The notes below the pieces were generated by a model that had not been told where the DNA came from, ran no database searches, and worked only from the letters and a program-made list of their open reading frames with translations. From Kineosporia babensis (GTDB lineage: Bacteria; Actinomycetota; Actinomycetes; Actinomycetales; Kineosporiaceae), in the NCBI RefSeq assembly GCF_021129305.1, contig NZ_JAJOMB010000014.1, positions 62,001 through 126,000 on the forward strand: a stretch of DNA of 64,000 nt. Reading direction: 5' to 3'. Each line of letters opens with the position of its first letter. Position 1 is the first letter of the stretch. This document shows positions 410-21,007 of this stretch, one piece after another. A program made the position numbers and the translations under genes.

Positions 410-1678
410 GTGAGCACCGTTTTCCCGCCTCCCGGCGGCCCTGAACTCCCACATCGTGGGAAAACTGGCTCCTGTGAACCGGAAAGCTTTAACCAGAACG
501 AAACAGCCGGCGCGAAGCTGCCCGGTGTGATCCGCGTGATGGCCGTCTCGGCCGGGCTGATCGGCGCCAACGTCCACTACGCCCAACCTCTCATCCCGGT
601 GATCGCGATCTCCGTGGGCGTGGGAACGGACACCACCGGAATGCTGCCCGCCCTCAGCCAGATCGGATTCGCCATCGGACTTCTCGCCGTCCTGCCGCTG
701 GGCGATCTCCTGGAGCGCCGACGGCTGATCACCACCACGGTCTGGCTCGCCGTAGGAGCCTTGGCCCTGATGGCGCTGGCACCGAATGTGCCGCTGCTGA
801 TGACCGCCGCGTTCCTGGTCGGCCTGTTCAGCATTGCCCCGCAACTGCTCTCACCCTTCGCTGCTGATCTGGCCCCGCCGGGACGCCAGGGGCAGGCTTC
901 CGGTCTGGTCATCTCCGGGATCCTGTTCGGAGTGCTGTTCAGCAAGCTGGTGGCCGGGGCGGTGGCAGCCACGGCCGGCTGGCGCTGGCTGTACGTAGGC
1001 GCAGCCCTCACCCTGATCGTCCTGGGCATCGTTCTGCAGCGCACGCTTCCGCTCAGCCGGCCCGCAGACCCACCCCGCTACTCAGTCCTGATGCGCTCGC
1101 TCGGTGAGCTGGTCGTCCATCATCCACGTCTGAGGCTGCACGCCGTTCTCGGCGCGGCGAGTTCGGCCCTGTTCATGATCTTCTGGTCCACGTACGCAGT
1201 GCACCTGGCCGAGCGTTTCGGGTACGGACCGTTCCTGGCCGGTCTTTTCGGCCTCGCGGGTATCGCCGGCAGCCTGCTGGCACCGCTGGCCGGCCGGGCC
1301 ATCGATCGCGGACGGTTCACCCCCGTCCTCTCGGCGGCCATGGCAGCGATCTTCGTTGCGTTCGCCGTGCTGCTCGCGGGCGGAGGGTCGTGGTGGGCCA
1401 TCGTCGTGGGGGCAGTGCTTTTGGACGCTGGTGTGGGAGTCAGTCACGCGGCCAACCAGGCCGCGGCGTTGCGTTTGGATCCCGCCCGGCGAAGCCGGGT
1501 CAACAGCGTCTACATGTTCGGGTACTTCATGGGGGGCGCGCTGGGAACGGCGGTAGCGGGCGGGGTATCGGGGCAGTGGGGATGGTCGGGAGTGTGCTCG
1601 CTGGGACTGGTCCTGACCGCCTGCACGAGCATCCTGGTGGCTGCGTCCCGGTATCCACGGGGGAGCGGCTCATCGTGA
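410..1678 (+). CDS. MFS transporter (12-TM, sugar-efflux/YnfM-like)
   Basis: A 422-residue major facilitator protein with about 12 hydrophobic segments. The first membrane segment carries ANVHYAQPLIP, resembling the NLYYAQPLL signature of the drug/sugar-efflux MFS group, and the loop 2-3 motif is LGDLLERRRL. The GTG at 410 has GAGGTGA about 10 bp upstream and is used here. It gives a 43-residue non-membrane N-terminus, so starts at 527 or 539, right at TM1, are possible alternatives. The substrate is unknown. It is divergent from a GntR regulator, and its 3' end overlaps the convergent MFS gene by 9 bp. Confidence 0.8.
   Translation: MSTVFPPPGGPELPHRGKTGSCEPESFNQNETAGAKLPGVIRVMAVSAGLIGANVHYAQPLIPVIAISVGVGTDTTGMLPALSQIGFAIGLLAVLPLGDLLERRRLITTTVWLAVGALALMALAPNVPLLMTAAFLVGLFSIAPQLLSPFAADLAPPGRQGQASGLVISGILFGVLFSKLVAGAVAATAGWRWLYVGAALTLIVLGIVLQRTLPLSRPADPPRYSVLMRSLGELVVHHPRLRLHAVLGAASSALFMIFWSTYAVHLAERFGYGPFLAGLFGLAGIAGSLLAPLAGRAIDRGRFTPVLSAAMAAIFVAFAVLLAGGGSWWAIVVGAVLLDAGVGVSHAANQAAALRLDPARRSRVNSVYMFGYFMGGALGTAVAGGVSGQWGWSGVCSLGLVLTACTSILVAASRYPRGSGSS
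447..464. promoter_or_regulatory. Palindrome of the YTYCCA-N4-GTGGGAA type, copy A
   Basis: CTCCCACATCGTGGGAAA has the same length and register as copies at 11982-11999 and 12157-12174. It lies inside the first codons if the MFS gene starts at 410, but would be a leader/operator site if translation starts at 527 or 539. Confidence 0.4.
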
Positions 1679-3067
1679 CTGGCGTCGGCGTCTCAGCTGC
1701 GCCGGCAGCCCCGCGATCAGCAGCATCAGGCCGATCAGCACCAGGCACAGGCCAATGTTCCGGATCGCCGCGTCCATCGCGGCCGCTGCGGCATCGCGGT
1801 CCGTGGGGACCAGATGGGTCAGCAGGACCGCTGAGACAGCCGCGCCGACGTACTGCGAGGTGCGGTACAGGCCACTGGCGCTGCCGCTGGCCTCGGCGGG
1901 GGCAGCCGCGTGCAGGGTGAGCTGGTTGCCGAGGTTGTTGAATCCGGTCGGCAGCCCGAGCAGGACGTTGGCCAGAACCAGCAGGGCCAGCGGGCTTTCC
2001 ACGCCGGTGGTGAATGCCAGCACCAGGCCGGCGACGACCAGAGCGGCGTTGCCCACGACCAGCAGCCGCACCGGGCCCAGGCGCGCGGACAGCCGGGTGG
2101 CCAGGAAGGTCGAGACCACGCCGACACCGAAGATCGGCAGCATGAGTAGCCCCGCGGCGTCCGCGTCGAGGTCCCGGCCCACCTGCAGCCACTGCGGAAT
2201 CCCGTAGAACACCGTGTAGAAGGCGACGAACGTCACCATCCCGCGCAGGCAGGTCAGGAGGATCTGGGGGTGGGCGGCCAGCAGGCCCAGATCGAGAAAA
2301 GGCGTGGCGCAGCGGCGTTCGCGCCAGATCAGCAGGACCGCCAGGACCAGGCAGATGGCGATGGACCCAGCGGCCCGGGTGTCGAGCCCCTCGTCGAGGG
2401 ACAGCAGCACGGTCATCGCCAGCGACAGGGTGAGCACGAACAGCACGGCGCCGGGCACGTCGATGGCCCGCAACGAACGCGTGGCCGCGCGGGGCGGGTC
2501 GGCCGGTACACAGCGCCACACCCAGAAGAGGCAGTTCGCCACCAGGGGCAGGTTGATCCAGAAGATGCCCGGCCAGCCGGAAGCGACCACGATGAGGCCG
2601 CCCAGTGTGGGAGCCAGGGCGGCGCTCGTCTGACCGCACAGGGCGATCACCCCGATGGCCCCGGACACTCCTGCGCTGTGCCGGTCGGCCTCGCGCCGGA
2701 TGATCGCCATGGCGGCCGGGAACTGCAGCGAGGTACCCAGGCCGAGCAGTACCCGGTCGGCCACCAGCCAGCCTGCTGAGGGGGCGAACGGGCCGAGCAC
2801 GGAAGCGATCACGACCAGAGCCAGGCCGGACACGAAGATCCGGCGGGGCCCGAAGAGGTCAGCCAGCCGGCCGCCGGTCGGGGACCCCACGGCCGAGGCG
2901 ATGTACAGACCACTGATCAGCCACGGGATGGCCGCGGAGCTGCCGTAGTGCTCGGCGATCGGGATCAGCGCGACCGCGATCACCGCCGAGTTCAGCCCCT
3001 GCAGCACCGTTCCGCTGCCCAGCGCCCAAGCCAGGGATCTGGGCAGCGCAGGGGCGGCGGTGCTCAC
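1670..3067 (-). CDS. MFS transporter, DHA2/EmrB-type (14-TM)
   Basis: A 465-residue transporter with about 14 hydrophobic segments. The conserved loop 2-3 motif appears as GGRLADLFGPRR and motif C-like glycines are present in TM5, as in the 14-TM drug:H+ antiporter-2 family. The second GTG (3067) is preferred over 3073 because it gives the GTGA overlap with the upstream deacetylase stop, as at the other junctions of this operon. As last gene of the operon it most likely imports the substrate or exports a product or toxic intermediate of the pathway; direction cannot be read from sequence. Confidence 0.82.
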   Translation of the reverse strand: MSTAAPALPRSLAWALGSGTVLQGLNSAVIAVALIPIAEHYGSSAAIPWLISGLYIASAVGSPTGGRLADLFGPRRIFVSGLALVVIASVLGPFAPSAGWLVADRVLLGLGTSLQFPAAMAIIRREADRHSAGVSGAIGVIALCGQTSAALAPTLGGLIVVASGWPGIFWINLPLVANCLFWVWRCVPADPPRAATRSLRAIDVPGAVLFVLTLSLAMTVLLSLDEGLDTRAAGSIAICLVLAVLLIWRERRCATPFLDLGLLAAHPQILLTCLRGMVTFVAFYTVFYGIPQWLQVGRDLDADAAGLLMLPIFGVGVVSTFLATRLSARLGPVRLLVVGNAALVVAGLVLAFTTGVESPLALLVLANVLLGLPTGFNNLGNQLTLHAAAPAEASGSASGLYRTSQYVGAAVSAVLLTHLVPTDRDAAAAAMDAAIRNIGLCLVLIGLMLLIAGLPAQLRRRRQSR

Positions 3068-4002
3068 GGCCACGAATGCACGCTTTCGGCCACGGTTGCG
3101 GGGGTGGCCAGGAGAACCTCGGGGCGGGACGCGAGGCGACGCAGAAAGCGATCGGCGACGTCCGCGAAGCAGGCCTGCCCGAGGACCCAGCCGAACCAGC
3201 TCAGACCCAGGTGGCGCCCGCCCACCTCGTCAGCGTCGGCGATCAGCTGGTCGACCGTGGCGTCCAGCACCTTCTCGTAGGCGGGGAACGGCAGGCCTCG
3301 GGTGTAGAGGCTGAACATGTCCTCGGTCTCGAGCGGGTGCGAGACTGCGACGAGCCCGGCTGAAGAACCCTCCAGAGCCACGGGGCGCTCGTCCACCGGC
3401 CACTCGCCGAACCACCGGTACCCGGCCTCCCGCAGCAACCGGGTGGTGCGCGCGGACTGGCTTCGCTCGGGACCGAACCAGCCGGTGGCAACGCGTCCGG
3501 TGGCCTCCTGGACCGCCGCCGTGGAGTCAGCGATGTAGGCCTGTTCGGCTGCTTCGGAGAGCCCGGTGCCGAGAAGGACGTTGGCAGCCGCGCCTCGCAC
3601 GACGATCTCGTCGGCCTTGGAAGCCGCCAGCGAAGCGAGACCAGGCATCGTGCGTACGCCCTGCGCATCCAGGGCCACGGCAACCGGAACGCCTGCGGCC
3701 TGGGCGATGTCGAGCAGCCGCCAGATGCCGGTGGTCAGGCCGAAGTCCCACTGCGAGAGCCGGGCGACCTGGCCGTGGCGGGGCTCGGACGTCTCCCGCC
3801 CGACGCCGCCCTGCATGGCCGTCGGCTTCAGCCGGCCGGCCGGGACGTCGTCCAGGTAGGCCGGGGCGTGCAGCAGCAGCGAGACCACGAGCTTCTTGCC
3901 CTCGGGCAGCTGCCAGGGCTCACGATCGGGGTCGTAGGTGCGCGGAAGGTCGGGCGCGAAGACCGTTGCGTCCGGGGGATTGACCACGAGCGGAAGGTTC
4001 AC
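3064..4002 (-). CDS. Polysaccharide-deacetylase/allantoinase-like protein, probably catalytically degenerate
   Basis: A 312-residue paralogue of the gene just upstream. It keeps the fold-level landmarks of the PuuE-like NodB group (FGLTTGIWRLLDIA, ATGWFGPERSQSARTTRLL, YRWFGEWPVDERP). The metal-ligand region that reads MSHGISN in the partner reads VVRGAAA here, and the late histidine motif THPFVSG is replaced by LSWFGWV. The usual histidines are therefore missing, and it may be a pseudoenzyme or partner subunit. The GTG at 4002 overlaps the upstream stop (GTGA). Function is inferred only from family and context. Confidence 0.7.
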   Translation of the reverse strand: MNLPLVVNPPDATVFAPDLPRTYDPDREPWQLPEGKKLVVSLLLHAPAYLDDVPAGRLKPTAMQGGVGRETSEPRHGQVARLSQWDFGLTTGIWRLLDIAQAAGVPVAVALDAQGVRTMPGLASLAASKADEIVVRGAAANVLLGTGLSEAAEQAYIADSTAAVQEATGRVATGWFGPERSQSARTTRLLREAGYRWFGEWPVDERPVALEGSSAGLVAVSHPLETEDMFSLYTRGLPFPAYEKVLDATVDQLIADADEVGGRHLGLSWFGWVLGQACFADVADRFLRRLASRPEVLLATPATVAESVHSWP

Positions 4003-4907
4003 CGGGTCACCGCCGCAAGCTGCTGGTCGTAGTGGTGCTCCAGGTAGTGGTCGGTGATCTCGCCGGCCGTCGTCAGCCACACGCCGTCCTGCTCCCGAAG
4101 CCAGCCGAAGATCTCGCGCAGGTACTCGGTGAACCAGGGCTGGCCGCTGACGAACGGGTGGGTGGCCACACAGGCGACCCGACCCTGCCCGTCCGCACCG
4201 GCGTCCCTCAGCAACCGCCCGACCTGGGCCTTGACCATGTCCACGAAGTACTCACCGTCGTAGTGCTTGGCGTGCAGCAGCGGCACGTCGTTGAGCATGT
4301 AGCTGTAGGGGACGGAGACCAGCCGGGCGCCGGAAGCCGTTCGCAGGGGCCGGGGTTGCTCGTCGTGGATCCAGTCGGCGTGGTAGGTCATGCCGGCCTC
4401 GGACATCAGGTCGCAGGTGTGGTCGGTGCCGGAGACCTTCGGCCCGAGCATGCCCTTGATCGGCGCACCCCAGTAGCGCAGCGCCAGGGCCTGGTTCTGG
4501 ACGTAGAACTCCCGCTCGGCCTCGAGCGAGTATCCATACAGGGGACGCAGGTTGGAGATCCCGTGGCTCATCACCTCCCAGCCGCGTTCTTTCATCGCGT
4601 CGCGGACCTGCGGAATCTCTTCCAGGACGGACAGGCTCAGGCTGACCGTGGAGGGGATCGCGTACTCGTCCACCACCCGCAGCATCCGCCAGAAAGCGGT
4701 GCGGTTGCCGCTGTCACGGTGCATGTAGTGCTGGACGTCCGGCGCGGGCACCCGGCCCTGCGGGCTGCCCTGACCCGGTGGGACATAGTCGTAGTGCTCG
4801 ACGTTCGGGGCGTGCCAGACCGCTACCCGGGCGCCGCCGGGCCAGGTCACCCGGGGGCGCAGCGGCAGTGGCTGGTACACCATCCGCTGGTTGTTGAGGA
4901 TCGTCAT
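3999..4907 (-). CDS. Polysaccharide deacetylase family, allantoinase (PuuE)-like hydrolase
   Basis: A 302-residue NodB-fold protein resembling the metal-dependent allantoinase-type deacetylases. Visible landmarks are VAVWHAPNVEHYDY near the N-terminus, GWEVMSHGISNLRPLYG (metal-histidine region), MLGPKVSGTDHTCDLMSEAG, YHADWIHDEQP, and THPFVSGQP near the C-terminus. The family hydrolyses amide or ring C-N bonds, e.g. allantoin or N-acetyl groups. Start at ATG 4907 overlaps the isochorismatase stop (ATGA). With its degenerate downstream paralogue it may form a two-subunit enzyme (inference). Confidence 0.78.
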   Translation of the reverse strand: MTILNNQRMVYQPLPLRPRVTWPGGARVAVWHAPNVEHYDYVPPGQGSPQGRVPAPDVQHYMHRDSGNRTAFWRMLRVVDEYAIPSTVSLSLSVLEEIPQVRDAMKERGWEVMSHGISNLRPLYGYSLEAEREFYVQNQALALRYWGAPIKGMLGPKVSGTDHTCDLMSEAGMTYHADWIHDEQPRPLRTASGARLVSVPYSYMLNDVPLLHAKHYDGEYFVDMVKAQVGRLLRDAGADGQGRVACVATHPFVSGQPWFTEYLREIFGWLREQDGVWLTTAGEITDHYLEHHYDQQLAAVTR

Positions 4908-5536
4908 GCCCGCGCGAACCTCTCGAGCATCCACTCCAGCGACACCACGTCGGCAAAGCGGTCCTGCATGTCCCACAGGGAGACCTCGCCGGACAGGGTG
5001 CGGAAGTCGTCGCAGCACTCCTCGACGACGCTGATCCGGTAGTTCAGGTACGCGGCATCGGTGACCGTGGCCCGGACGCAGCCGCTGGTGGAGGTGCCGA
5101 TCATCACGACCTCGTCGACCCCGAGTTCCTGCAGCAGGTCGTGCAGACGGGTGCGGAAGAAGCCGGAGGCGACGGTCTTCTCGACGATGTGATCGCCCGG
5201 CTGGGCGGGCACGGCGGTGGAGATCTCGGTCCACGGGTTGCCTCGTTCGCAGCGTTCGGTGAGCGAGGAACGCACGCGCTGGGCCAGCATCCGGTCATCG
5301 AGGCTGTCCAGGATCATCACCAGGTAGATCACCGGGACACCGGCTGCCCGGGCGGCCTCCAGCAGCTGCTGGGAGTGCTTGAGGGCGACCGGGGTGCTCG
5401 GGCCGACGAACTCGTGCTCGGTGAAGGCGCGCTGGAAGTCCACCACCACCACGGCCGGATGCTCGCCGGGTCCGATCCGGGTCCGGTCGCGCCGCAACTG
5501 CCGGATCCGCTCGACCTCGTGGTTCCAGTCGGTCAT
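4904..5536 (-). CDS. Isochorismatase-family cysteine hydrolase (2 of 2)
   Basis: A 210-residue cysteine hydrolase. The catalytic triad of the family is visible: Asp in VVVDFQRAF, Lys in VEKTVASGFF, and the nucleophile Cys in TSTSGCVRAT after the cis-peptide strand. Members include nicotinamidase, maleamate amidohydrolase, N-carbamoylsarcosine amidase and ureidoacrylate hydrolase, so an amide or ureide bond is the likely target. ATG 5536 overlaps the preceding stop by one base (TGATG). It is only moderately similar to the adjacent isochorismatase, so the two probably act on different intermediates. Confidence 0.85.
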   Translation of the reverse strand: MTDWNHEVERIRQLRRDRTRIGPGEHPAVVVVDFQRAFTEHEFVGPSTPVALKHSQQLLEAARAAGVPVIYLVMILDSLDDRMLAQRVRSSLTERCERGNPWTEISTAVPAQPGDHIVEKTVASGFFRTRLHDLLQELGVDEVVMIGTSTSGCVRATVTDAAYLNYRISVVEECCDDFRTLSGEVSLWDMQDRFADVVSLEWMLERFARA

Positions 5537-6171
5537 CAGAGGCCTTTCGCAGAGTGGAGAAGATCGATGGCGGAACGTGTCTCGATCACTTGGCCGATCT
5601 TGGCGTCGATGTCGCGCAGGTTGGCCCGGTGGACGTCCTCGTGCCGGTCGCCCACGGCGTCGGCCACCACGAACGGGACGAAGCCGTGCTGCAGGGCGTC
5701 GAGGGCGCTGGCGCGCACGCAGCCACTGGTGCTGAGCCCGGCGATGACGAGCGTGTCGATGGCCTGGGCGGTCAGGGTGGCGGCCAGGGACGTGCCGAAG
5801 AACGCGCTGGGGTAGTGCTTGGTCACCAGGGTTTCGCCGGCGGTTGGTTCCAGACCTTCGATGAACTCGGCCCACGGGTTGCCGGGGGTGAAGCACTGGC
5901 CGGTCGCCGGTACCTTGCGGGCGAAGACGCCTCCGTCGCCGGGGTATTCGTGCAGGACCCGGGTGATGACGACGGGGGTTGCGGTGGTGCGGGCGGCCTG
6001 GAGCAGGGTGCCCATGTTGCGAACCGAACTATGGACGTCGGCGTGCAGTGGGGAAGCCGGGTCGACGTAGGCGCGGGCCGGGTCGATGAGCAGGAAAGCT
6101 GCGCGTCGGCCGGGGGTCAACTGCCCGGCCAGCCCGGCCGCGGCGAAGTCGGCGGCCAGGTCGTGGTTCAC
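5536..6171 (-). CDS. Isochorismatase-family cysteine hydrolase (1 of 2)
   Basis: A 211-residue hydrolase with an intact triad: Asp in FLLIDPARAY, Lys in VTKHYPSAFFGT, Cys in LSTSGCVRAS. The insert GQCFTPGNPWAEFIEGLEP, with a pre-catalytic loop, resembles N-carbamoylsarcosine-amidase-like members. The GTG start at 6171 forms a GTGA overlap with the Dabb gene stop. Amidohydrolase activity is well supported by the triad; the substrate is not. Confidence 0.85.
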   Translation of the reverse strand: MNHDLAADFAAAGLAGQLTPGRRAAFLLIDPARAYVDPASPLHADVHSSVRNMGTLLQAARTTATPVVITRVLHEYPGDGGVFARKVPATGQCFTPGNPWAEFIEGLEPTAGETLVTKHYPSAFFGTSLAATLTAQAIDTLVIAGLSTSGCVRASALDALQHGFVPFVVADAVGDRHEDVHRANLRDIDAKIGQVIETRSAIDLLHSAKGL

Positions 6172-6464
6172 GGTTTCTCGACCTGCGCGAACAGTTTCGA
6201 CGACAGGACCGGCGCGATCCGGTCCTTGATCACGGCGAGGTGCGCAGGATGCGTCCCGTACGCCTCCCAGGCCGACTTCTCGGCGAAGACCATCCGGAAG
6301 GTGATGTCCGCGTTGCCTTCCCGCAGGCCGGCATCCTGCCCGGCGTGCGCCTCCAGCAGGCCGGGGATCTCGCCCGGCAGGGCATTCAAGCCGTCCACGA
6401 TGGCGGCCCGCTGCTGCGCGGTGGCCTCGGGGGTGAGCTGGAGCATGCCGAAGTGCTCGAACAC
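6168..6464 (-). CDS. Dabb (stress-responsive A/B barrel) domain protein
   Basis: A 98-residue ferredoxin-like alpha/beta protein. It has the Dabb/EthD-like pattern: FEHFGMLQLTPEATAQQRAA at the start, then an ITFRMVFAEKSAWEAYGTHP strand-helix and HLAVIKDRIAPVLSS. Dabb proteins are dimeric barrels found in catabolic and biosynthetic clusters as small isomerases, cyclases or chaperone-like proteins. GTG 6464 is preceded by AAAGGGA, a good ribosome binding site. It sits 14 bp after the maleate-isomerase-like gene and overlaps the next gene by 4 bp. Confidence 0.78.
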   Translation of the reverse strand: MFEHFGMLQLTPEATAQQRAAIVDGLNALPGEIPGLLEAHAGQDAGLREGNADITFRMVFAEKSAWEAYGTHPAHLAVIKDRIAPVLSSKLFAQVEKP

Positions 6465-6478
6465 GGTGGTCCCTTTCC

Positions 6479-7222
6479 TCAGTGCTCGGCCAGCAGCCGG
6501 CCGAAACCCTTGACCTGGTCGTCGATACCCTCGGCGCGCAGGGCGTGCCAGACCGTGGCCGCGTTGATCGCGATCACCGGCTTGCCGAGTTCGGCCTCGA
6601 GTTCGGCGGCGGTGGCGACGGCGGCCAGGTTGGTGCCGGCCTGGACCAGGGCGTCGACGTCGGGGGAGTCGACGGCCAGGAAGGCCTCGCGGATCTCCTG
6701 CGGCGTGACATCGGCTATGCCCGTGGCACTGTCCACCGACAGCCCCTTGACGATCGTCACCTCGAAGCCCATCTGGGTGAAGAAGGCCCGCACCTGCTCG
6801 TCCCCGACCGGCTGGTACGGCGTGATCACGGCGATCCGTTTGGCCCCGAAGGCGTCCAGGGCGGCCTTGCACGCCGCAGCGCCGGTGGAGACCGGCCGGC
6901 CGGACTTCTCGTTGACCCAGGACTCGAACTGGGCCGCGCCGTCCGCGCCGCCCCAGAACGTCTCGGCCGACATCCCCATCACGATCCGGTCCGGCTTGCA
7001 GGTGACCACGTCCCTGACCGCGGAGCCGATCTGGGTGCGCAAGTCCTCCAGAAACGTCTCCATCTTGCCGTCCGAGCCCAGATCCTCGTCGGCGATGTAG
7101 ATCCGGCCGGTGTGGAACGAGACCCCCGGCGGGCGCATGTCGTTGTACTCGGCCTCGACGACGGTGTTGGTCGAGGGGAGCACCACGCCGAGCACGGCGC
7201 GGGGAGAGGTGACGGTGGTCAA
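6479..7222 (-). CDS. Maleate isomerase/arylmalonate decarboxylase-like protein (Asp/Glu racemase superfamily) lacking the usual cysteines
   Basis: A 247-residue protein with the maleate cis-trans isomerase layout: LGVVLPSTNTVVEAEYNDM at the start, RIAVITPYQPVGDEQVRAFF in the middle, VDALVQAGTNLAAVA and GKPVIAINAATVWHALR near the end. Known maleate isomerases use two cysteines; the corresponding places read MGMSAETFWGG and QAGTNL, so neither is present. I believe this reflects a conserved cysteine-free subfamily of unknown reaction rather than decay. The TTG start at 7222 is chosen because it overlaps the upstream stop (TTGA). Confidence 0.75.
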   Translation of the reverse strand: MTTVTSPRAVLGVVLPSTNTVVEAEYNDMRPPGVSFHTGRIYIADEDLGSDGKMETFLEDLRTQIGSAVRDVVTCKPDRIVMGMSAETFWGGADGAAQFESWVNEKSGRPVSTGAAACKAALDAFGAKRIAVITPYQPVGDEQVRAFFTQMGFEVTIVKGLSVDSATGIADVTPQEIREAFLAVDSPDVDALVQAGTNLAAVATAAELEAELGKPVIAINAATVWHALRAEGIDDQVKGFGRLLAEH

Positions 7223-9273
7223 GCGGTCCTCCGGTTTTCCAGTAGGCCGGTGAGGTCGGCCCACGACATCTGCGACTCGGTCGAATGGGGGACGTGGGTG
7301 GTGGCGATCGCGGCGTAGGTGTCCCGGATCGCGCCGGAGGCGGCCAGCAGGCCGGAGACCGGGTAGATCACCACCGCGACGCCGCAGTCGCCGAGCAGGT
7401 CCAGGTCCGGCGCGGTGATCTCGCCGTGTGCCTCGGACAGGTTGAGCACCAGCCGTTTTCCGGTGGACCGGTTCAGGTGGGTCAGCAGCTTGGGCTCGCT
7501 CAGGTGCTGCACCATCAGCAGGTCGGCGCCCGCTTCGGCGTAGGCCTGGGCCCGCTCCAGCGCGGTCTCCAGGCCGTCCACGCCCAGGGCGTCGGTGCGG
7601 GCGATCACCAGCATCTGCTGCCGTGCCGCCACCGCCGAGCGGATCTTCTCCACCATGTCCGGCAGCGGGATCAGCGCGGTCTTGCTCTTGGGGTGGACCT
7701 GGTCCTCGAGCTGGATGGCGGCGGCCCCGGCCAGCTCGTACTCGCGCACGGTCCGCGCCACCTGCAGCGGCCCGCCGTAGCCGCCGTCGGCGTCGGCAAT
7801 CACCGGGACCCCGGCCGCTGCGATCCGCCGGATCTGCTCGGTCATTTCCGCGACCCCGGCGAACCCGGAGTCCGGGGAGCCCAGAACGGTGGCCGAAACC
7901 CCGGCACCGGAGAGGTATCCGGCGGTGAATCCGGCCTGCTGCAGGAGCCGGGCGGAGACCGCGTCATGGCAGCCCGGTGCGATCAGCGGCTTGGCGGTGA
8001 GCAGGTCGGCCAGCTGCCGGCCGGGAGCCTGCGCAGTGGTACGGGCCGCGCGCAGTCCGGTGGCGAGCTGTTCGCGGCTCTCGGCCAGGGAACGGATCAT
8101 CGAGCTGTTGAGCAGGTAGGCACGCGCCTTCACCGGGTCGGCCGCCATCGCGCCGAGCGCGGCGGTGCGCTGGTGGCGGGCCTCGGTGTCGCTCTCGCGC
8201 ATGTCGGCGTAGTTCTTCTTGGTGGTGGCCTGCACGTGCGAGATCGTCGCGCTACGCCGGGCGTGGTCGTAGGCGGCGGCGCAGGCGTCCGGGTCGGCGC
8301 CGCTCAGCGCGGCCAGGATCACCCGGACCGCGGCCTCGGCGTCGTGGATGCCGGAGTTCATGCCCATCCCGCCGAGCGGGTTGTTGGCGTGCGCGGCATC
8401 ACCGGCGATCAGCACCCGGCCGGCCGCGAAGGTGGCCGCGACCCGCTGGTGCACGGCGTAGATCGAGGCGTGGTCGAGCGGGTAGGGCTCGGGGCGGGCC
8501 GAAAGCTGCTGCAGGCGGGCCTCGATCGTCTCCGGGGCCAGAGCCTGCTCGTCCGTGGTGCCCTCGGCGACCGGCATCAGCACCCGCCAGTGCTTGGGGG
8601 TGCGCAGCAGCACGCCCCACTCCTGGGGGTCGGAGACGTAGGAGACCAGGGCCAGGCCGGGAAAGGCCTCGGTCAGGTCGAAAGTGGTTGAGGCGACCAG
8701 GAACCGCTCGGGCAGGGTGACACCCTCGAACGCCACGCCCAGGCTCTTGCGCACGGTGGAGGAGGCGCCGTCGGTGGCGATCACCCACTTGGCCCGGTAG
8801 GAGGGTTCGCGTCCGTCGCCGGGCAGGTACACCGACACGTTCTCGGATCCGCGCTCGACTCGCTGGACCTCGGCCCCGAAACGCAGGCTCGCGGTGGGCA
8901 GCTGCTCCAGGTGAGCGGCGACGATCTCGGTGAGCTTGTTCTGCTCGCACTGCAGCCGGTACGGGAAGGCCGTGTCGTCGGCGAGCAGCCCGAGGTCCAG
9001 GTCGGCCAGGACGTTCCCGTGCCGGTCGCGGTACTGGAAGTTGCGGGCGATCAGGCCCTTGGCGTGGAGTTCTGCACCGACGCCGAGCCCGTGCAGGATC
9101 TCCAGGGTGGGCGGGTGGAAGGTGGAGGCCCGGGACTCGGCCGAGAGTTCTTTGCCGGCTTCCAGAACCACGACCGGCACGCCGTTGCGGGCCAGGGACA
9201 GGGCGGCGACCATGCCGACCGGGCCGGCGCCGACCACGACGACGTCGGTCTCGACCGTGGGGCTGGGGTTCAT
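7219..9273 (-). CDS. Fusion: FAD-dependent aromatic-type monooxygenase + PEP mutase/isocitrate lyase-superfamily domain
   Basis: One uninterrupted 684-residue reading frame. Residues 1-400 are a class A flavin monooxygenase: VVVVGAGPVGMVAALSLA (FAD Rossmann), DGASSTVRKSLG around 168-179, and GRVLIAGDAAHANNPLGGMG at 285-304. Residues 415-665 are a PEP mutase/isocitrate lyase barrel: metal motif DADGGYG at 494-500 and LEDQVHPKSK at 522-531. The active-site Cys usual after the ED-Q motif (KKCGH/PKRCGH) is absent, which points to a decarboxylase or hydrolase-like member rather than a classical lyase. The fusion suggests ring hydroxylation followed by C-C cleavage. ATG 9273 overlaps the nitrilase stop (ATGA). 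Confidence 0.85.
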   Translation of the reverse strand: MNPSPTVETDVVVVGAGPVGMVAALSLARNGVPVVVLEAGKELSAESRASTFHPPTLEILHGLGVGAELHAKGLIARNFQYRDRHGNVLADLDLGLLADDTAFPYRLQCEQNKLTEIVAAHLEQLPTASLRFGAEVQRVERGSENVSVYLPGDGREPSYRAKWVIATDGASSTVRKSLGVAFEGVTLPERFLVASTTFDLTEAFPGLALVSYVSDPQEWGVLLRTPKHWRVLMPVAEGTTDEQALAPETIEARLQQLSARPEPYPLDHASIYAVHQRVAATFAAGRVLIAGDAAHANNPLGGMGMNSGIHDAEAAVRVILAALSGADPDACAAAYDHARRSATISHVQATTKKNYADMRESDTEARHQRTAALGAMAADPVKARAYLLNSSMIRSLAESREQLATGLRAARTTAQAPGRQLADLLTAKPLIAPGCHDAVSARLLQQAGFTAGYLSGAGVSATVLGSPDSGFAGVAEMTEQIRRIAAAGVPVIADADGGYGGPLQVARTVREYELAGAAAIQLEDQVHPKSKTALIPLPDMVEKIRSAVAARQQMLVIARTDALGVDGLETALERAQAYAEAGADLLMVQHLSEPKLLTHLNRSTGKRLVLNLSEAHGEITAPDLDLLGDCGVAVVIYPVSGLLAASGAIRDTYAAIATTHVPHSTESQMSWADLTGLLENRRTA

Positions 9274-10979
9274 CGGGGCTGCTCCGGGGAAGAAAGGAAG
9301 GACGCGTACAGGTGCGGCTGGCGGGTGGCGAGGGGGTCGAGGTGGAAACCCATCACCTTGGAGTGCGACTCGCGCAGGTCCAGGTCCACCCGCATCTGCT
9401 CCTCGAACCCGCTGCGGCAGGTCCAGACGGTGGGGAAGCGCATCAGCGCGATCGGCTGGCCGAAGACGAACTCGTCGGCCTGGACCACCTGGCTGCCGAG
9501 TCCGGCCGGGCAGTCCAGCCGGGTGGCCGAGATCAGGTGGGTGCGGTTCTCCTCGGTGCGCTCGACCGCGGCGATGGTGGCGGCCTCGGGCCGGTCCCAG
9601 TCGGTGGGGTGGGCGATGATCTCGGCGCCCCGCACGGTGAGGACCCGGGCCACCTCCGGCAGCCAGACCTCGGCTCCGATCATCAGGCCGATCCGCCCGA
9701 TCGGGGCGTCCAGCACGGTGAGCTCGTCCCCGGCCGTGGCCCACGCGCGTTCGGGGTCGGTCAGGTGGGTCTTGCGGTAGCTGCCGAACACCCCGTCCGG
9801 CCCGATCAGCCACGCGGTGGAGAAGTAGCGGCCGGCCTCTTCCTCGACCAGGTTCGCGACCACCCAGAGTTCGCCCCCGGCAACGGCTTCGGTGAGGCGG
9901 CCGAGGACGTCGGTGCTGAGCTTGGCGGCTGCCGCGGGGTCGGCGGCCACCTCGCCGCGGGCGAAGCAGAACAGCTCCGGCAGCACACCCAGTTGAATGC
10001 CGCGGGTGGCCGCGTAACTGATCTGGCCCAGGGCACGGGTGATCGTCCAGTCCTGGTTGTGGAACCAGGAAACCTGGAGCGGGGCGACGGTCAACGGCTT
10101 CTTGGGGACGTCGGTGGCGGGCCCGTACATGGCGGCCACCGGCAGGTCGGTGACGGGAAGGACCAGGTCGCCGTACAGGTCGGGGCGGCGCCAGGCGATC
10201 ACGTCGGCGCCGAAGGAGGCCCACTTGTCGTCCGCCTCGCTGACCTGGATGTCCGCCCAGACCAGCATCTCGGAGTGCTCGTCGGCGACCGCGACCACCT
10301 CCCCGTCGGGGGAGACGACCTGCGAGCCGCCCATCCACGGGTAGGCGTCGGCCGGCCCGCCGACGGTGTTGGCCGAGACGTGCCAGACCCGGTTCTCCAT
10401 CGCCCGCAGCGGCACGTGGGTGCGCAGTTCGTCCGGGCCCCGGCTGTTGAGCGAGTTGAGCAGGATCTGCGCCCCGGCCAGGCCGAGCAGGCGGGGGACC
10501 TCCGGGACGATGCCGTCGGCGCACATCAGCAGGCCGAGCCGGCCCAGCGGGGTCTCGACCACCTCGATCGGCTCGTCGCCCGGGACGAACAGGGTGTACT
10601 CGTAGTCCCAGAAGATGTGCTTGCGGTGCACCTTGAGGATCGAGCCGTCCGGGCCGATCAGCACCTGGCCGATGTGCACGTCCGGGGCCTGCTCGCCGCG
10701 CAGGTCGACTCCGACGGCGGCGTACAGGCCCAGTTCGGCGCAGGCGGCGCGCAGTCCGGTGACGAACTCGCCCTCCAGCGTCTCGGCGTGCTCCCAGGCA
10801 CTCTCGCGGGTGGTGAAGTCGCGCACCCGGTTGGAGTTTTCGGGAGTGACCAGGATCTGGGCACCGGCCTCGGCGGCCGCGCGCAGGTAGTGCCCGCACA
10901 GCTCGAGATTGGCCCGGACATCGGTGCCGGAGAAGAACTGGGCGGTGGCGACCCGGACCGGGGCGGGCAGGGCGGGCAT
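9270..10979 (-). CDS. Tandem two-domain nitrilase/amidase (carbon-nitrogen hydrolase), second domain catalytically dead
   Basis: A 569-residue protein with two consecutive CN-hydrolase domains. In domain 1 the Glu-Lys-Cys triad is visible: E47 in VTPENS, K120 in VHRKHIF, C153 in GLLMCADG. In domain 2, E335 (LPELF) and K403 (YRKTHL) remain, but the nucleophile position is G435 (GLMIGAEVW). The second half should therefore be non-catalytic and may hold a tetramer-like interface. The first gene of the nine-gene minus-strand operon. ATG 10979 follows GGAGG by 7 bp and is preferred to an upstream in-frame start. Likely hydrolyses a nitrile, amide or N-carbamoyl bond. Confidence 0.85.
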   Translation of the reverse strand: MPALPAPVRVATAQFFSGTDVRANLELCGHYLRAAAEAGAQILVTPENSNRVRDFTTRESAWEHAETLEGEFVTGLRAACAELGLYAAVGVDLRGEQAPDVHIGQVLIGPDGSILKVHRKHIFWDYEYTLFVPGDEPIEVVETPLGRLGLLMCADGIVPEVPRLLGLAGAQILLNSLNSRGPDELRTHVPLRAMENRVWHVSANTVGGPADAYPWMGGSQVVSPDGEVVAVADEHSEMLVWADIQVSEADDKWASFGADVIAWRRPDLYGDLVLPVTDLPVAAMYGPATDVPKKPLTVAPLQVSWFHNQDWTITRALGQISYAATRGIQLGVLPELFCFARGEVAADPAAAAKLSTDVLGRLTEAVAGGELWVVANLVEEEAGRYFSTAWLIGPDGVFGSYRKTHLTDPERAWATAGDELTVLDAPIGRIGLMIGAEVWLPEVARVLTVRGAEIIAHPTDWDRPEAATIAAVERTEENRTHLISATRLDCPAGLGSQVVQADEFVFGQPIALMRFPTVWTCRSGFEEQMRVDLDLRESHSKVMGFHLDPLATRQPHLYASFLSSPEQPR

Positions 10980-11010
10980 AAAGGGACCTCCGCAAGGGCC
11001 GGGAGAATGA

Positions 11011-11135: not shown

Positions 11136-11174
11136 TTCGCATCATCGGCGAAGCGAGATGTCATTATGTGCGAA
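11136..11174. promoter_or_regulatory. Inverted repeat pair TTCGCA-N27-TGCGAA, copy 2
   Basis: TTCGCA at 11136-11141 and TGCGAA at 11169-11174. The last base is the A of the IclR ATG, so a bound protein would cover the start region of its own gene. The extended half-sites ATCATTCGCAC (this copy, reverse strand) and ATGATTCGCAC (copy 1) match almost fully. Confidence 0.6.
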
Positions 11175-11977
11175 TGATGGCAGAGAGAACTGTCGCCGAC
11201 GGTGCGGGCCGTCGCCTCGGCGGGATCGAGAGCGGGCGCAAGCTCGTCAGCGTCCTGATGTCTTTCGACGGTGAGCGCCCGGTCTGGACGGTGGCCGAAC
11301 TGGCCCACGAGCACGGGCTGACCACCTCGACGGCCTACCGGTACGTCGGGGTGCTGCGAGAGATGGGCCTGCTCGACGCGGCCGGTCCGGCCGGGGCCTA
11401 CCGCGTCACCGAACGGGTCTCCTCGCTGCAGGGGGCGCTGGACGCCGGGACGGCCGCCCTGCGGGACATCGCGATGCCAGTGATGATCCGGCTGCGCGAC
11501 GAGATCGACGAGACGGTGCTGATCGCCCGCCGGGGCGGGGAGCATGCCTACTGCATCGACCGGGTGGAGTCGCGGCATCCGGTGCGGCTGCAGTTCCAGC
11601 GCGGCGAGGCGATGACACTGCACCTGGGCTCGATGGCCCGGCTGCTGCTCTCACAGATGCCGCCCGCCGATCGCCGGCGCTACCTGGACCGGATCGAGCC
11701 CACTCTCACACCCGGCCAGGCCGGGCAGATCACCGAGGAGAAGCTGGCGCAGATCGCCCGCGACGGCTTCGCGGTCAGCAGCGAGGAGATCGACGAGGGG
11801 ATCTGGGGGACGGCTGCCATGGTGCGGGCTCCCTCGGGTGCGGTTCCGGCGGTGATCGGGACCGCCGGGCCGGTGCACCGGCTGCCGCCCGAGCGCCGGG
11901 ACGAGGTGATCCGGTGTGTCGTGGCCGCGGCGGAGGAGATCACGGCCGGTCTGCGGCGGCGTCCCGGTAGCGCCTGA
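11174..11977 (+). CDS. IclR-family transcriptional regulator
   Basis: A 267-residue regulator. The N-terminal winged HTH is visible as WTVAELAHEHGLTTSTAYRYVGVLREMGLL, followed by the IclR effector domain (TVLIARRGGEHAYCIDRVES, GEAMTLHLGSMARLLLSQMP, ISSEEIDEGIWG-like region, AVIGTAGPVHRLPPERRDEVI). The ATG at 11174 is chosen because the HTH begins about 30 residues later; ATG 11177 is equally possible. It is divergent from the nitrilase operon and upstream of the ABC/methyltransferase operon, so it is placed to control both. Twin TTCGCA repeats flank its promoter region. Confidence 0.85.
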   Translation: MMAERTVADGAGRRLGGIESGRKLVSVLMSFDGERPVWTVAELAHEHGLTTSTAYRYVGVLREMGLLDAAGPAGAYRVTERVSSLQGALDAGTAALRDIAMPVMIRLRDEIDETVLIARRGGEHAYCIDRVESRHPVRLQFQRGEAMTLHLGSMARLLLSQMPPADRRRYLDRIEPTLTPGQAGQITEEKLAQIARDGFAVSSEEIDEGIWGTAAMVRAPSGAVPAVIGTAGPVHRLPPERRDEVIRCVVAAAEEITAGLRRRPGSA

Positions 11978-12191: not shown

Positions 12192-13244
12192 ATGATGGAC
12201 GTCGCACTGGGCCAGCGCTCACGGGCCGCCCTGCAGTTTCTCGGATCGGCACAGGGCTACGCCGGCGGCACCCTGCAGCCCGCGGCCGCGGCGGTGTACG
12301 AGCAGGCCGTCCCCGAGCCGCCGCTGGACCTGGACTCCCGGCGGGCCTCGGTCGAGAGCGTCCTGGCCGACTGCGCCGAGTGGCAGATGGACCGCCTGGT
12401 CACGCGCTGGGTGGCCGAGGAGATCTACGTCCGGGCGCTGCCGGCCGTGGAGGAGATCCGCCCGCGCGTCGAGAAGTGGCTCGAGGTCGGCGAGAGCCCG
12501 GTGAGCCTGGAACTGAACCCCGACCGCGAGGCCCCGGCGTACTGGGAGGGCGGCTTCCATCTGACCCCCGGCGGCTGGGACGGGCACGACCTGATGGGCA
12601 CCGCCATCCACGAGCTGGTCTTCGCCTACGTGCTGACGCCTGGCGGCGTCGGCGCGGTGCGTACCGGCCAGAACCTGAACGACCAGCGGGCCAAGGCTGC
12701 CCGCGAGGCCTACCGCGACGAGTACCGCAACATCGCCGAACTCGGCAGCAGCACCGGCCGTTTCACCGTCCGCCTGCACCAGGCCTACCCGCAGGCCCGG
12801 ATCACCGGCGTGGAGCTGGGCGCCAGTGCCCTGCGGCACGGCCGGGCCTACCTCACCGAGCAGGGCGTCCCGGCCCGGCTGGTCCAGGCCGCCGCCGAGG
12901 ACACCGGCCTGCCGGACGCCTCGTTCGACCTGGTCGCCATGTACACGCTGATCCACGAGGTCCCGGTCACCGCCAGCGCGCAGATCTTCGCCGAGGCCTT
13001 CCGCCTGCTGGAACCCGGCGGCGACCTGCTGATCGGCGAGATCGCGCCGACCGACCAGCACTCCGCCTTCCGCGCGGTCGTCCTGGACTGGGAGACCGAG
13101 AACCGCGGCGAGCCCTACGCCCGCGAGGCGATGTCGATGGACGCGGTGGCCATGCTGCGCGAGGCCGGCTTCACCGAGATCGAGTCCTACGGCCTCGACG
13201 GCGTTCACCCGTGGGTCACCCGCGCCCGCAAACCCCAGGCCTGA
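12192..13244 (+). CDS. SAM-dependent methyltransferase-like protein (paralogue 1, altered SAM loop)
   Basis: A 350-residue protein with an N-terminal helical region (about 1-110), a conserved linker (YWEGGFHLTPGGWDGHDLMG, HELVFAYVL, NQRAKA-type) and a class I methyltransferase fold (about 180-345) with LLEPGGDLLIGEI. Motif I reads IAELGSSTGRF, whereas the paralogue at 15143 has the canonical CDLGCGTGQ; the central glycine is a serine here, so SAM binding may be weakened. ATG 12192 or 12195 follows GGAAGG. It is the first gene of a 13-gene operon and is followed 14 bp later by a small partner protein. Confidence 0.75.
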   Translation: MMDVALGQRSRAALQFLGSAQGYAGGTLQPAAAAVYEQAVPEPPLDLDSRRASVESVLADCAEWQMDRLVTRWVAEEIYVRALPAVEEIRPRVEKWLEVGESPVSLELNPDREAPAYWEGGFHLTPGGWDGHDLMGTAIHELVFAYVLTPGGVGAVRTGQNLNDQRAKAAREAYRDEYRNIAELGSSTGRFTVRLHQAYPQARITGVELGASALRHGRAYLTEQGVPARLVQAAAEDTGLPDASFDLVAMYTLIHEVPVTASAQIFAEAFRLLEPGGDLLIGEIAPTDQHSAFRAVVLDWETENRGEPYAREAMSMDAVAMLREAGFTEIESYGLDGVHPWVTRARKPQA

Positions 13245-13258
13245 GAGGTACTCCGAGG

Positions 13259-13546
13259 ATGACCGAGAAGCGACCCACCTACCTGAGCGGCGACGAGCGC
13301 CTGGACGACCTGGCCCGGATGGTCCTCGAGCTGACCTCCGAGGTCTGGGTGCTCAAGGACCGCACGATGGTCCTGGAGCACCTGCTCGCCGCCAAGGGAA
13401 CGCTCGCCGAGGCCGAGATCGACCAGTTCCAGCCGGCTGCCGAGCTCGCCGCAGTGCTGCGCCGTGAGCGTGAGGCGCTCCTCGCCCGCGTGCTGGGGGC
13501 GCTGCTGCCCTCCGACGACCGGGTGAAGTCCGCCCTGAGCCGTTAG
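13259..13546 (+). CDS. Small helical protein, paralogue 1 (uncharacterised)
   Basis: A 95-residue protein with no recognised domain. The core is LARMVLELTSEVWVLKDRTM, then VLEHLLAAKGTLAEAEID, then a predicted amphipathic helix AAVLRREREALLARVLGALL. A second copy at 18233 keeps the same pattern (ELxSEVWVLxDRxxVLExLLAxxGTL), so the family is real and duplicated together with the methyltransferases. ATG 13259 lies after CCGAGG. A role as non-catalytic partner of the methyltransferases is inference. Confidence 0.7.
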   Translation: MTEKRPTYLSGDERLDDLARMVLELTSEVWVLKDRTMVLEHLLAAKGTLAEAEIDQFQPAAELAAVLRREREALLARVLGALLPSDDRVKSALSR

Positions 13547-13589
13547 CCCCACTACCCCTTCCTTTTTACTCCCTGCCCCAGGAGCTCCC

Positions 13590-15146
13590 GTGTCCCCCGA
13601 GTTCGTTCGTGCTGCCCAGAATCCCTTCTCCCGCAGAAGCTTCCTGCAGTTCAGCAGTCTCGCCGCCGGTGTTGCCGCGCTGGCCGCCTGTGGCGGCCCG
13701 GGCGGTGGCGACGCCGCCGAGGGCGGTAGCGGCGCCAAGGCCACTCTGATCAAGATCGGTACCGCGGCCACCGCGGGCTCGATGAACCCGCTCGACGAGC
13801 AGTACTCCAGCCTGCAGGTCAACGTGTTCGACTCGCTGGTGCGGGTCTACGCCGGTGACCCCGAGCCGCAGGGCCGGATCGCCGAGTCCTGGGCGGAGAC
13901 CGGGGAGAACACCTGGACCTTCACGCTGCGCCAGGGCGTGACGTTCCACGACGGGACCCCGGTCACCGCCGAGGACGTGGCGTTCAGCTTCGACACGCTG
14001 ATGGCCGAGCAGTACGCCAACTCGATCACGCTGATCAGCATCAAGTCGATCAAGGCGGTGGACGACTCGACCGTCGAGGTGGTCTCGGCCGGGCCGGACC
14101 CGCTGCTGATGAGCCGGCTCTCCGCGCTGTACGTGGTGCCCAAGGCGCACTGGGAGAAGTCCGGCGGTGGCGAGGGTTTCGCCCAGGACCCGATCGGCTC
14201 CGGCCCGTTCAAGGTGGAGTCGTACTCGGCCGACACCGGCGCCCAGCTGGTCGCGTTCGCGGACTTCTGGGACGGTGCCCCGGCCACCGAGAAGATCCAC
14301 ATGACCTACTTCAGCGACGCCTCGGCGCTGGCCCTGGCCCTGCAGTCGGGTGAGGTCGACGTGGCGCACCAGCTCACCACGGCGCAGTACCCGACCCTGG
14401 AGGGCGACGACAACCTCGACCTGAGCGCGCAGTTCGGTGGCACCCAGAACATGCTGCAGCTGAAGACCACCAGCGGCCCGTTCGCCGACATCCGGGTGCG
14501 CCAGGCCGCGATCGCCGCGATCGACGCCGACGCGCTGGTCCAGGGCCTGACCCACGGCCTGGCCGAGAAGGAGGACGGCCAGCTGCCGCTGAAGGAGGTC
14601 AACGGCTACACCGACACGATCACCCGCCCCGCCTACGACCTCGAGAAGGCCAAGGCCCTGCTGGCCGAGGCCGGCGCGACCGGCGCGGAGATCAAGATCA
14701 CCGGCATGTCGCTGTACCGGCAGCTGCTGGAGGCGATCGGCGAGCAGCTCACCGCCGCCGGGTTCAAGCCGACCATCCAGGCGCTCGAGATCTCCGAGTG
14801 GGTGCAGCAGTTCACCGGCGGCTCGGACTCCGACATCTTCTACCGGGGCGTGGCCTACACCGGCGTCTTCGACGTGGACCGGGCCTTCTCGATGGTCTCC
14901 TTCGGTGACAAGCCGGCGGTCAAGGACCCGGAGTGGGACAAGCTGTTCGCCGCCACCCGCACCGAGACCGACCCGGCCGCCCGGCTGGAGAAGATCGCCA
15001 CCGCCAGCCAGTACCTCAACGACCAGGCGTACATCCTGTGGAGCTACGCCAACCCCTCGATCAGCGCGGCTGCCAAAACGGTCTCCGGCACCGACTTCAA
15101 CCAGGGTCTGGTGCTGCCGATGCAGGGGCTGGTGAAGCAGGCGTGA
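13590..15146 (+). CDS. ABC transporter substrate-binding lipoprotein, dipeptide/oligopeptide type (SBP_bac_5)
   Basis: A 518-residue extracellular solute-binding protein. The N-terminus has a twin-arginine RRSFLQF and a lipobox LAAC, so it is exported folded and lipid-anchored. The family pattern follows: ESWAETGENTWTFTLRQGV, FHDGTPVTAEDVAFSFDTL, DPIGSGPFKVESY, VRQAAIAAIDADALVQG. Proteins of this family bind peptides, but also nickel, opines, glutathione and other small compounds. The GTG start at 13590 is 43 bp after the small gene. Works with the ABC components at 16210-20309. Confidence 0.88.
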   Translation: MSPEFVRAAQNPFSRRSFLQFSSLAAGVAALAACGGPGGGDAAEGGSGAKATLIKIGTAATAGSMNPLDEQYSSLQVNVFDSLVRVYAGDPEPQGRIAESWAETGENTWTFTLRQGVTFHDGTPVTAEDVAFSFDTLMAEQYANSITLISIKSIKAVDDSTVEVVSAGPDPLLMSRLSALYVVPKAHWEKSGGGEGFAQDPIGSGPFKVESYSADTGAQLVAFADFWDGAPATEKIHMTYFSDASALALALQSGEVDVAHQLTTAQYPTLEGDDNLDLSAQFGGTQNMLQLKTTSGPFADIRVRQAAIAAIDADALVQGLTHGLAEKEDGQLPLKEVNGYTDTITRPAYDLEKAKALLAEAGATGAEIKITGMSLYRQLLEAIGEQLTAAGFKPTIQALEISEWVQQFTGGSDSDIFYRGVAYTGVFDVDRAFSMVSFGDKPAVKDPEWDKLFAATRTETDPAARLEKIATASQYLNDQAYILWSYANPSISAAAKTVSGTDFNQGLVLPMQGLVKQA

Positions 15147-18236: not shown

Positions 18237-18484
18237 AAACCCCTGAAGACATCGACGGAATGATGCGGATGATGCTCGAGCTGGCTTCCGAGGTCTGGGT
18301 GCTGCGCGACCGGTTCAGCGTCCTGGAGGCGCTCCTGGCCGAGCGGGGCACCCTGAGCGCCGCGGACCTGGACGCCTACCAGCCCGGCGCGGACCTGGCC
18401 CAGCACCTGGACGGCGAGCGTGCCGCCTTCGTGCGGCGCCTGCTGGACGCCGGGGCCGGCCGCGTGGAACTGGGGACGACGTGA
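18233..18484 (+). CDS. Small helical protein, paralogue 2 (uncharacterised)
   Basis: An 83-residue paralogue of the protein at 13259, with MMLELASEVWVLRDRFSVLE, ALLAERGTLSAADLDAYQP and a C-terminal helix ERAAFVRRLLDAG. It lies between the second ATPase and the first permease and overlaps both by 4 bp, so its stoichiometric synthesis with the transporter is built in. No catalytic residues or membrane segment are seen. It could be a transporter accessory or a methyltransferase partner. Confidence 0.7.
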   Translation: MKTPEDIDGMMRMMLELASEVWVLRDRFSVLEALLAERGTLSAADLDAYQPGADLAQHLDGERAAFVRRLLDAGAGRVELGTT

Positions 18485-20309: not shown

Positions 20310-21007
20310 AACTCGCTGTCAAGGAATGGGGCTCAGGGCCTCGGCGGGCGCTGCTGATTCACGGTGCGACCTCCACCAAGGAAACAATGACGCCGCTGGC
20401 CGAGGAACTGGTGCAGCGCGGCTACCGGGTGATCGCCCCCGACCTGCGCGGGCACGGCGAGAGCCCGCGCGGTGAGCACTACGCCCTGCAGGCCCTGGCC
20501 GACGACGTGGTCGAGACCGTCGGCGAACCGGTGGAACTGGCGGTCGGGCACTCGCTGGGCGGCAAGGTGCTGCCCTGGGCGGTGAAGGACCTGAAGGCGC
20601 GCCGGGCGCTGTACCTGGACCCGGCCTGGACCGCCCGCGAGGTGGACCCGTACGCCGAGGCACTGACCAAGGCGGACGGCTCGCCGATGAACCTGGACGA
20701 CATGCAGGCGCTCTACCCCTGGATGACGCCCGAGGACATGCAGGAGAAGCTGGACCGCTACCTGGCGATGGACTGGAAGCTGTTCCACGACCCGCTGCTG
20801 CAACTGCGCCGCACCACCATGCCCGCGATCCCGGCCGTCACCCGTTCCCTGGTCGTGCTGGCCGATCCGAGCGTCCTGGTGCCGCCGGTCATGGTGCAGG
20901 CGCTGGAGGTCGGAGGATACGAGGTGCGTACCCAAAAGGGCGGCGACCACGGGCTGTTCCAGTCCGACATGCCCGCATTCCTGGCCACGGTCGAGGGCTG
21001 GCTCTGA
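20306..21007 (+). CDS. Alpha/beta-hydrolase fold enzyme
   Basis: A 233-residue hydrolase. The oxyanion region is [13 protein letters not shown], the nucleophile elbow is VGHSLGGK, and the late histidine is in [11 protein letters not shown]. Catalytic Asp is probably in [14 protein letters not shown] 20306 overlaps the permease stop (ATGA). It may hydrolyse an ester, amide or formyl group in the imported compound, before or after oxidation by the molybdenum enzyme encoded next. Confidence 0.85.

Follow-up and report, generated by a model that had tools for sequence, protein, structure and literature searches.

The window analysed here, a 64,000-nucleotide stretch of a Kineosporia babensis contig, contains a minus-strand gene in which a flavin monooxygenase (FMO) and a PEP-mutase/isocitrate-lyase barrel (PEPM) are encoded as a single protein. 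Comparison with its relatives suggests, as the simplest account, a single origin of the fusion in Actinomycetota: two genes that stand apart elsewhere, both belonging to one conserved catabolic cluster, were joined. In the branch to which the window belongs, the barrel has lost the catalytic Cys of its lyase relatives and is, relative to its FMO, constrained as much as a fused barrel that retains it. Both domains are well known; the novelty lies in their combination, in the single origin most likely for it, and in a barrel that lacks the Cys and is nevertheless constrained.

The gene (7219..9273, minus strand) runs from an ATG at 9273 to a TGA at 7219-7221, and its 684 codons contain no stop other than the terminal one; the plus strand over the same interval has internal stops in the corresponding frame. 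Pfam places FAD_binding_3 at residues 8-344 (E = 2.7e-60) and PEP_mutase at 424-656 (E = 1.8e-46) of the same chain. An earlier note on this DNA had described an uninterrupted 684-residue two-domain frame, and this was borne out; its domain ranges were also correct, and the strand was absent from it. Between the domains lies a linker of residues 401-423 (8005..8073, minus strand). In the AlphaFold model of the fusion (mean pLDDT 93.5, pTM 0.76) a helix at 393-413 extends into this linker and carries on into another at 417-424. At both junctions the gene overlaps its neighbour by four bases, ATGA at 9270-9273 and TTGA at 7219-7222. The same fused protein is present in a congener (genome G398, locus L142; 78% identity over residues 6-679), and full-length fused relatives occur at seven more actinobacterial loci (L038, L058-L063; 50-59% identity). 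Because the congener and the other genomes share the same frame, an assembly or frameshift artefact was rejected, and the fusion is neither chance nor assembly error.

The N-terminal half (residues 1-400; 8074..9273, minus strand) is a group-A flavin monooxygenase. FAD_binding_3 scores 204.9 bits against a gathering score of 22, and what we take to be the GxGxxG, DG and GD fingerprints of the group are all present, as GAGPVG near the N terminus, ATDGASSTVR and AGDAAHANNPLGG. Its closest solved relatives are PnpA (6ain) and HspB (7da9). PnpA is also the best Foldseek match of the whole fusion model (TMt 0.92), and the top 50 matches listed are all FMO-fold chains.

The C-terminal half (residues 424-656; 7306..8004, minus strand) is a barrel of the PEP-mutase/isocitrate-lyase superfamily by Pfam (159.1 bits against a gathering score of 31.5), alignment and model. 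It carries the metal motif DADGGYG (residues 494-500; 7774..7794, minus strand), whose aspartates are presumably D85/D87 of PrpB. Throughout, the columns come from alignments, and the PrpB residue numbers and roles attached to them are our assumption. In these columns the window has the equivalents of Ser45, Asp58, Asp85/87, Glu115, Arg158 and Asn210, together with Gln589 (7507..7509, minus strand) at the Glu188 position, where the congener has Glu. The KRCGH motif with its acid Cys, by which 2-methylisocitrate lyase is recognised, is missing: its site is occupied by PKSKTALI (residues 528-535; 7669..7692, minus strand), an active-site loop five residues shorter. The earlier observations that DADGGYG is kept and that the usual catalytic Cys is missing therefore both hold, in the translation and in alignment to solved lyases. 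The prpB model (NCBIfam TIGR02317) gives the half 193.6 bits, below its cut-off of 354.4, and is still the best family model for it.

We asked how widely the Cys is conserved. K[RK]CGH is found in all 33 separate PEPM genes (32 of them distinct, as L044 and L073 belong to the same genome), implying that selection holds the Cys where a separate PEPM enzyme is used. Among the nine fused barrels it is present in five and gone in the four of the window's subclade. These four all keep the equivalents of Ser45, Asp58, the DxD pair, Glu115, Arg158 and Asn210, and three keep Glu188, the window having Gln. The loop that substitutes for KRCGH exists in four different versions in the four proteins and therefore reveals no new catalytic residue. 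One of the Cys-containing fused barrels, L060 from Rhodococcus, has Ser in the Asn210 column. Four further FMOs (L064, L066, L067 and L068, the last a protein of 617 residues) end in a decayed barrel in which the motif and nearly all checked residues are lost; L068 retains the Arg. Each of these four loci also has a separate PEPM gene that contains the Cys.

The set of relatives comprised the best 80 of 187 confirmed loci together with L038, L142, L044, L045 and L049, giving 85 loci plus the window. The nine fused proteins (window, L142, L038, L063 and L058-L062) answer the earlier call to look for the same architecture in actinomycete genomes, most simply with one origin, and the possibility raised there that homologues are always separate genes was rejected. 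The remaining loci, apart from the decayed ones, have an FMO without a fused PEPM; four of the 33 separate PEPM genes lie beside a decayed barrel. Of 84 FMO tree rows, 28 have a separate PEPM gene, 43 have none in the examined stretch (no tblastn match above 60 bits in about 8 kb per side, contig permitting), and in 4 the FMO carries just a decayed barrel. In L045 and L137 the separate FMO and PEPM genes lie side by side with an overlap of a few bases; in Nocardiopsis the separate PEPM is on the opposite strand to the FMO. Full-length fused matches were found in 3 of 394 genomes of the class (E 1e-60), and in 3 of 396 of the order and 1 of 396 of the phylum (E 1e-90), with the window's genome counted and the three samples overlapping; this rarity makes the fused gene a patchy trait. 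Within the genus, 2 of 6 genomes have such a match. No fused copy was seen among plasmid records at E 1e-30: 136 had a match, none with a single place covering 80% of the query.

Trees of the two halves point to a single joining event. The FMO tree has 84 rows, after removal of L044, which comes from the genome of L073, and of L070, whose FMO is truncated; the PEPM tree has 44, without L044 and the four decayed domains. In the FMO tree, the nine fused proteins, the four decayed ones and one MAG row without PEPM (L069) form one 14-row clade with support of 100/99. Within it, the Cys-containing fused proteins (five rows, 100/100) and the Cys-less ones (four rows, 100/96: the window, its congener, a Microbacterium and Arthrobacter citreus) each form a subclade. 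The Cys-less group is sister to the decayed rows L064, L066 and L067 (96/88); since the fourth, L068, stands apart, barrel decay most simply took at least two events. In the PEPM tree, too, the fused barrels form a single clade (98/94); its sister group (98/92) comprises 16 separate PEPMs of the cluster, out of the 18 such actinobacterial genes in this part of the tree. Within Actinomycetota the two trees largely mirror one another. Both contain a single fused clade, so a single joining of two genes from one pathway is the simplest account of the fusion. We also considered whether the separate PEPMs of L064, L066 and L067 might be the lost domain set free; this was rejected, as in the PEPM tree they group with L151 and L152, genomic prpB-like genes from two genomes of the window's order. 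The separate PEPM of L066, the only one tested, scores 348.9 bits against the prpB cut-off of 354.4.

We estimated dN/dS by NG86 with bootstrap, the window type resting on one genome pair, window and congener. The values were 0.258 for the FMO (bootstrap 0.19-0.36) and 0.236 for PEPM (0.15-0.34), with 0.46 for the linker (0.14-1.07) and 0.74 for the tail, both with wide intervals. Two Cys-containing fused pairs, which share L058 from Streptosporangium, gave 0.15 and 0.17 for PEPM and 0.14 and 0.09 for the FMO, at a dS of about 1 or more. The decayed barrel, in contrast, gave 0.68 (0.51-0.95; the single pair L066/L064) against 0.18 for its FMO. Free decay was thus rejected for the window type, and purifying selection of this strength implies that the window's PEPM half is still used. 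Summed end branches, expressed as PEPM over FMO, were 2.43/0.823 = 2.95 for Cys-less fused proteins (n = 4), 1.68/0.562 = 2.99 for Cys-containing fused ones (n = 5) and 3.285/1.934 = 1.70 for separate cluster genes (n = 16). Some relaxation after fusion is therefore likely, fused barrels of both kinds lying near 3.0, whereas the near identity of 2.95 and 2.99 implies that the Cys was lost without further loosening. Taken with the residues that are kept, this pattern indicates that the window's PEPM half probably works by chemistry that needs no Cys.

The neighbouring genes suggest what kind of pathway the fusion serves. It lies in a minus-strand row with stop-start overlaps at several junctions. 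Upstream is a double carbon-nitrogen hydrolase of the nitrilase family (9270..10982, start approximate), with an intact E-K-C triad in its first half; in that half Glu, Lys and Cys are kept in 45/45 rows. Downstream is a maleate isomerase/arylmalonate decarboxylase-like protein, Amd (6479..7222), whose TTG start would overlap the stop of the fusion. It matches the maleate cis-trans isomerase 4fq5. Maleate isomerase uses two catalytic cysteines; in what we take to be the two corresponding motifs of Amd there is no Cys in 42 of 45 rows, the window included, and one Cys, in the second motif, in the other 3. The row continues with a Dabb-domain protein (6168..6491, start approximate) and two isochorismatase-family amidases. 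Amidase B (5536..6171) has an intact D-K-C triad, and among it and its relatives Asp is kept in 27 of 28 rows (the other a gap) and Lys and Cys in all 28; amidase A (4904..5536) starts at an ATG at 5536, the search query having had two extra upstream codons. Two PuuE-like hydrolases follow, B (3999..4907; PuuE/polysaccharide-deacetylase-like) and A (3064..4023, start approximate), the latter with a weak match to TIGR03212 and no Pfam match at 1e-4. An MFS transporter (1670..3073) ends the row.

On the plus strand, a divergent IclR-family regulator (11141..11977, start approximate) begins the other arm. The genes of this arm (12204..21007) encode two methyltransferase-like proteins (12204-13244 and 15143-16213), an oligopeptide-type ABC importer (13590-15146 and 16210-20309) and an alpha/beta hydrolase (20306-21007); members of the methyltransferase family also occur at 15 other related loci. 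The order of the operon genes is shared with the congener (73-89% identity) and with the cultivable Arthrobacter citreus DSM 20133 (L063), and parts of the catabolic cluster also occur in Pseudomonadota and Chloroflexota. Together, the isochorismatase amidases, nitrilase, PuuE-like hydrolases, maleate-isomerase-like protein and oligopeptide transporter suggest breakdown of an N-heterocycle or imide. A ring-cleaving dioxygenase was not seen in those operon genes that were tested, and the case for an N-heterocycle therefore draws on the hydrolases only.

Our preferred reading, to which we give about an even chance, is that the fusion serves a catabolic operon as a bifunctional enzyme, the substrate probably being an N-heterocycle or imide, and that its Cys-less barrel most likely acts without that acid. 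The FMO half would hydroxylate an aromatic, already hydroxylated ring, in the manner of PnpA or HspB; the operon's PuuE-like hydrolases, nitrilase and two isochorismatases would open the product and strip its nitrogen; and the PEPM half, with a divalent metal, would act on a carboxylic acid from the same pathway. What the fusion provides would then be that two enzymes of a shared pathway are always made together, for which channelling is not required. Because the acid Cys is gone with its loop and the metal site is kept, along with the carboxylate residues, the window subclade's barrel may be expected to perform a step that needs no Cys acid, such as decarboxylation or another oxaloacetate- or PEP-mutase-like reaction. 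Several observations count against this reading. The replacement loop is not conserved, the Glu188 to Gln change of the window is absent from its congener, and the likely relaxation after fusion points the same way. In addition, a different contig of the genome from which the window comes encodes a PEPM that contains the Cys (L150), and this enzyme could supply the reaction. In favour of the reading, a search at E 1e-10 of the congener genome, which may be incomplete, found no other PEPM with a D.D.G[YFH]G motif, the sole other match being the weak L153.

It is possible, if doubtful, that the fused barrel turned into a scaffold with no catalysis of its own, serving to stabilise or oligomerise the FMO, and that losing the Cys was the beginning of its death as an enzyme. 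Catalytic residues have indeed been lost in the related lines L064, L066 and L067 and, elsewhere in the tree, in L068, at loci that all have a separate Cys-containing PEPM gene, and fused barrels of both kinds outpace separate ones relative to the FMO. The model of the L066 remnant (whole-chain pLDDT 90.2, pTM 0.80) still shows eight strands in the C-terminal region, but its alignment included intact barrels and this biased it toward a barrel. The dN/dS values separate the two conditions, the clearly decayed remnant drifting whereas the window type is constrained like its FMO, and the metal ligands are kept in 4/4 Cys-less barrels.

An unlikely reading is that the barrel retains an ancestral C-C cleavage of the methylisocitrate-lyase kind, in which water or a different residue would serve as acid. 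Such retention would fit the congener, in which the other checked lyase active-site residues are kept, the standing of prpB as best family model, albeit below cut-off, and the prpB-like gene at each of the remnant loci L064, L066 and L067. It fits less well with the invariant Cys of the separate PEPMs and with a window barrel that is also altered at Glu188.

The earlier note had proposed that a substrate might be hydroxylated and the product then cleaved or decarboxylated without release. As stated, this was not supported, and we consider it quite improbable that the barrel takes the hydroxylated product directly from the FMO site. The single chain with its short helical linker in the AlphaFold model, the overlapping gene pairs of L045 and L137, and the largely mirrored trees are what direct transfer would lead one to expect; the 43 FMO rows with no PEPM in the examined stretch, the 28 with a separate one, on the opposite strand in Nocardiopsis, and the 4 with a decayed barrel are not. 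As most FMO relatives have no fused barrel, the FMO product would seem normally to be released, although distant FMOs may differ in substrate, and the operon hydrolases would probably act between the two steps. Least probable, and very unlikely in our judgement, is a true hydroxylase-lyase, in which the barrel without the Cys would have acquired a novel metal-dependent reaction at a C-C bond of a ring-derived product of its own FMO, a two-step attack on a ring for which we know of no characterised counterpart.

Among the matches listed, the open-access literature contains no fusion of this architecture, in agreement with the earlier note, which knew of no characterised enzyme with this domain order. 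The relatives form an ordered series, from separate genes through fused proteins with the Cys and fused proteins that are Cys-less but constrained to fused proteins with a decayed barrel, which allows one to study how the reaction of a domain changes or vanishes after fusion. The Cys-less barrel can serve to probe what the lyase fold is capable of once its acid residue is gone, and the locus as a whole draws attention to a catabolic cluster of Actinomycetota that is uncharacterised.

Among known systems, the cluster resembles the bacterial nicotinate pathway, which, in the composition that we assume for it (NicC/NicE/NicF), likewise combines an FMO, a maleate-isomerase-like protein and an isochorismatase amidase. 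It differs in adding the PuuE-like hydrolases, the double nitrilase and PEPM, and in the Amd motifs, which mostly have no Cys; the 2,5-dihydroxypyridine dioxygenase of the nicotinate pathway is not among the window-cluster genes tested. A term search of the main text on the 4-hydroxypyridine pathway of Arthrobacter IN13 (PMC7356986) found no marker enzyme in common with the window cluster. For the FMO half, PnpA, the p-nitrophenol 4-monooxygenase of Pseudomonas putida (E = 4.8e-70, TMt 0.92), and HspB (E = 7e-48, TMt 0.91) are stand-alone chains of 418 and 393 residues; at only 34 and 31% identity, they do not allow its substrate to be predicted. With PrpB (1mum, 1o5q) and 2,3-dimethylmalate lyase (3fa3), which match at E of about 1e-37 to 5e-35, the PEPM half shares the metal and carboxylate residues, whereas it has a shortened loop without the KRCGH Cys and Gln for Glu188, and scores far under the prpB cut-off. 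The PA4872 oxaloacetate decarboxylase (3b8i, E = 4.5e-25) and PEP mutase (1m1b/1pym, E = 1e-20), matched more weakly than the Cys-containing lyases, belong to the same superfamily and presumably work without the lyase Cys.

In four loci of other genomes (L064, L066, L067 and L068), the flavin monooxygenase (FMO) proteins carry a C-terminal barrel that lacks nearly all catalytic residues, and each of these decayed barrels shares its locus with a separate PEP-mutase/isocitrate-lyase gene that contains the catalytic cysteine. The L064 contig is titled Planococcus sp. APC 4015, but the cluster on it falls together with those of Microbacterium and Nocardia, and the Planococcus name looks wrong.

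Beside the fusion lies a double nitrilase (window 9270-10982), in which one gene holds two nitrilase halves. When the window protein was aligned with its relatives, the Glu-Lys-Cys triad of the first half was intact in all rows (45/45). The second half has Gly at the expected Cys position in the window (LMIGAEV), and the variants listed for the relatives show the same replacement (33 of 45 rows). It is thereby a further fused unit of apparently non-catalytic character.

The cluster's maleate-isomerase/AMDase-like protein (window 6479-7222), often present near this FMO in related loci, has the motifs GMSAETFW and VQAGTN, both without the usual cysteines at the columns assigned to them. Both motifs are cysteine-free in 42 of 45 rows of this protein's alignment, the window included, and these proteins possibly form a separate subfamily. 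Two methyltransferase-like genes (window 12204-13244 and 15143-16213) both bear a long N-terminal extension; their family was found again in 15 other FMO-bearing loci, including Novosphingobium.

A Mariluticola plasmid (L140:7374-9904) encodes an FMO relative with 41% identity, accompanied by AA_synth (PF06684), DUF4286/EthD and amidohydrolase genes. Going by its annotation, Agrobacterium vitis pAt carries a similar gene set, and the two sets perhaps represent a different version of the cluster's pathway.
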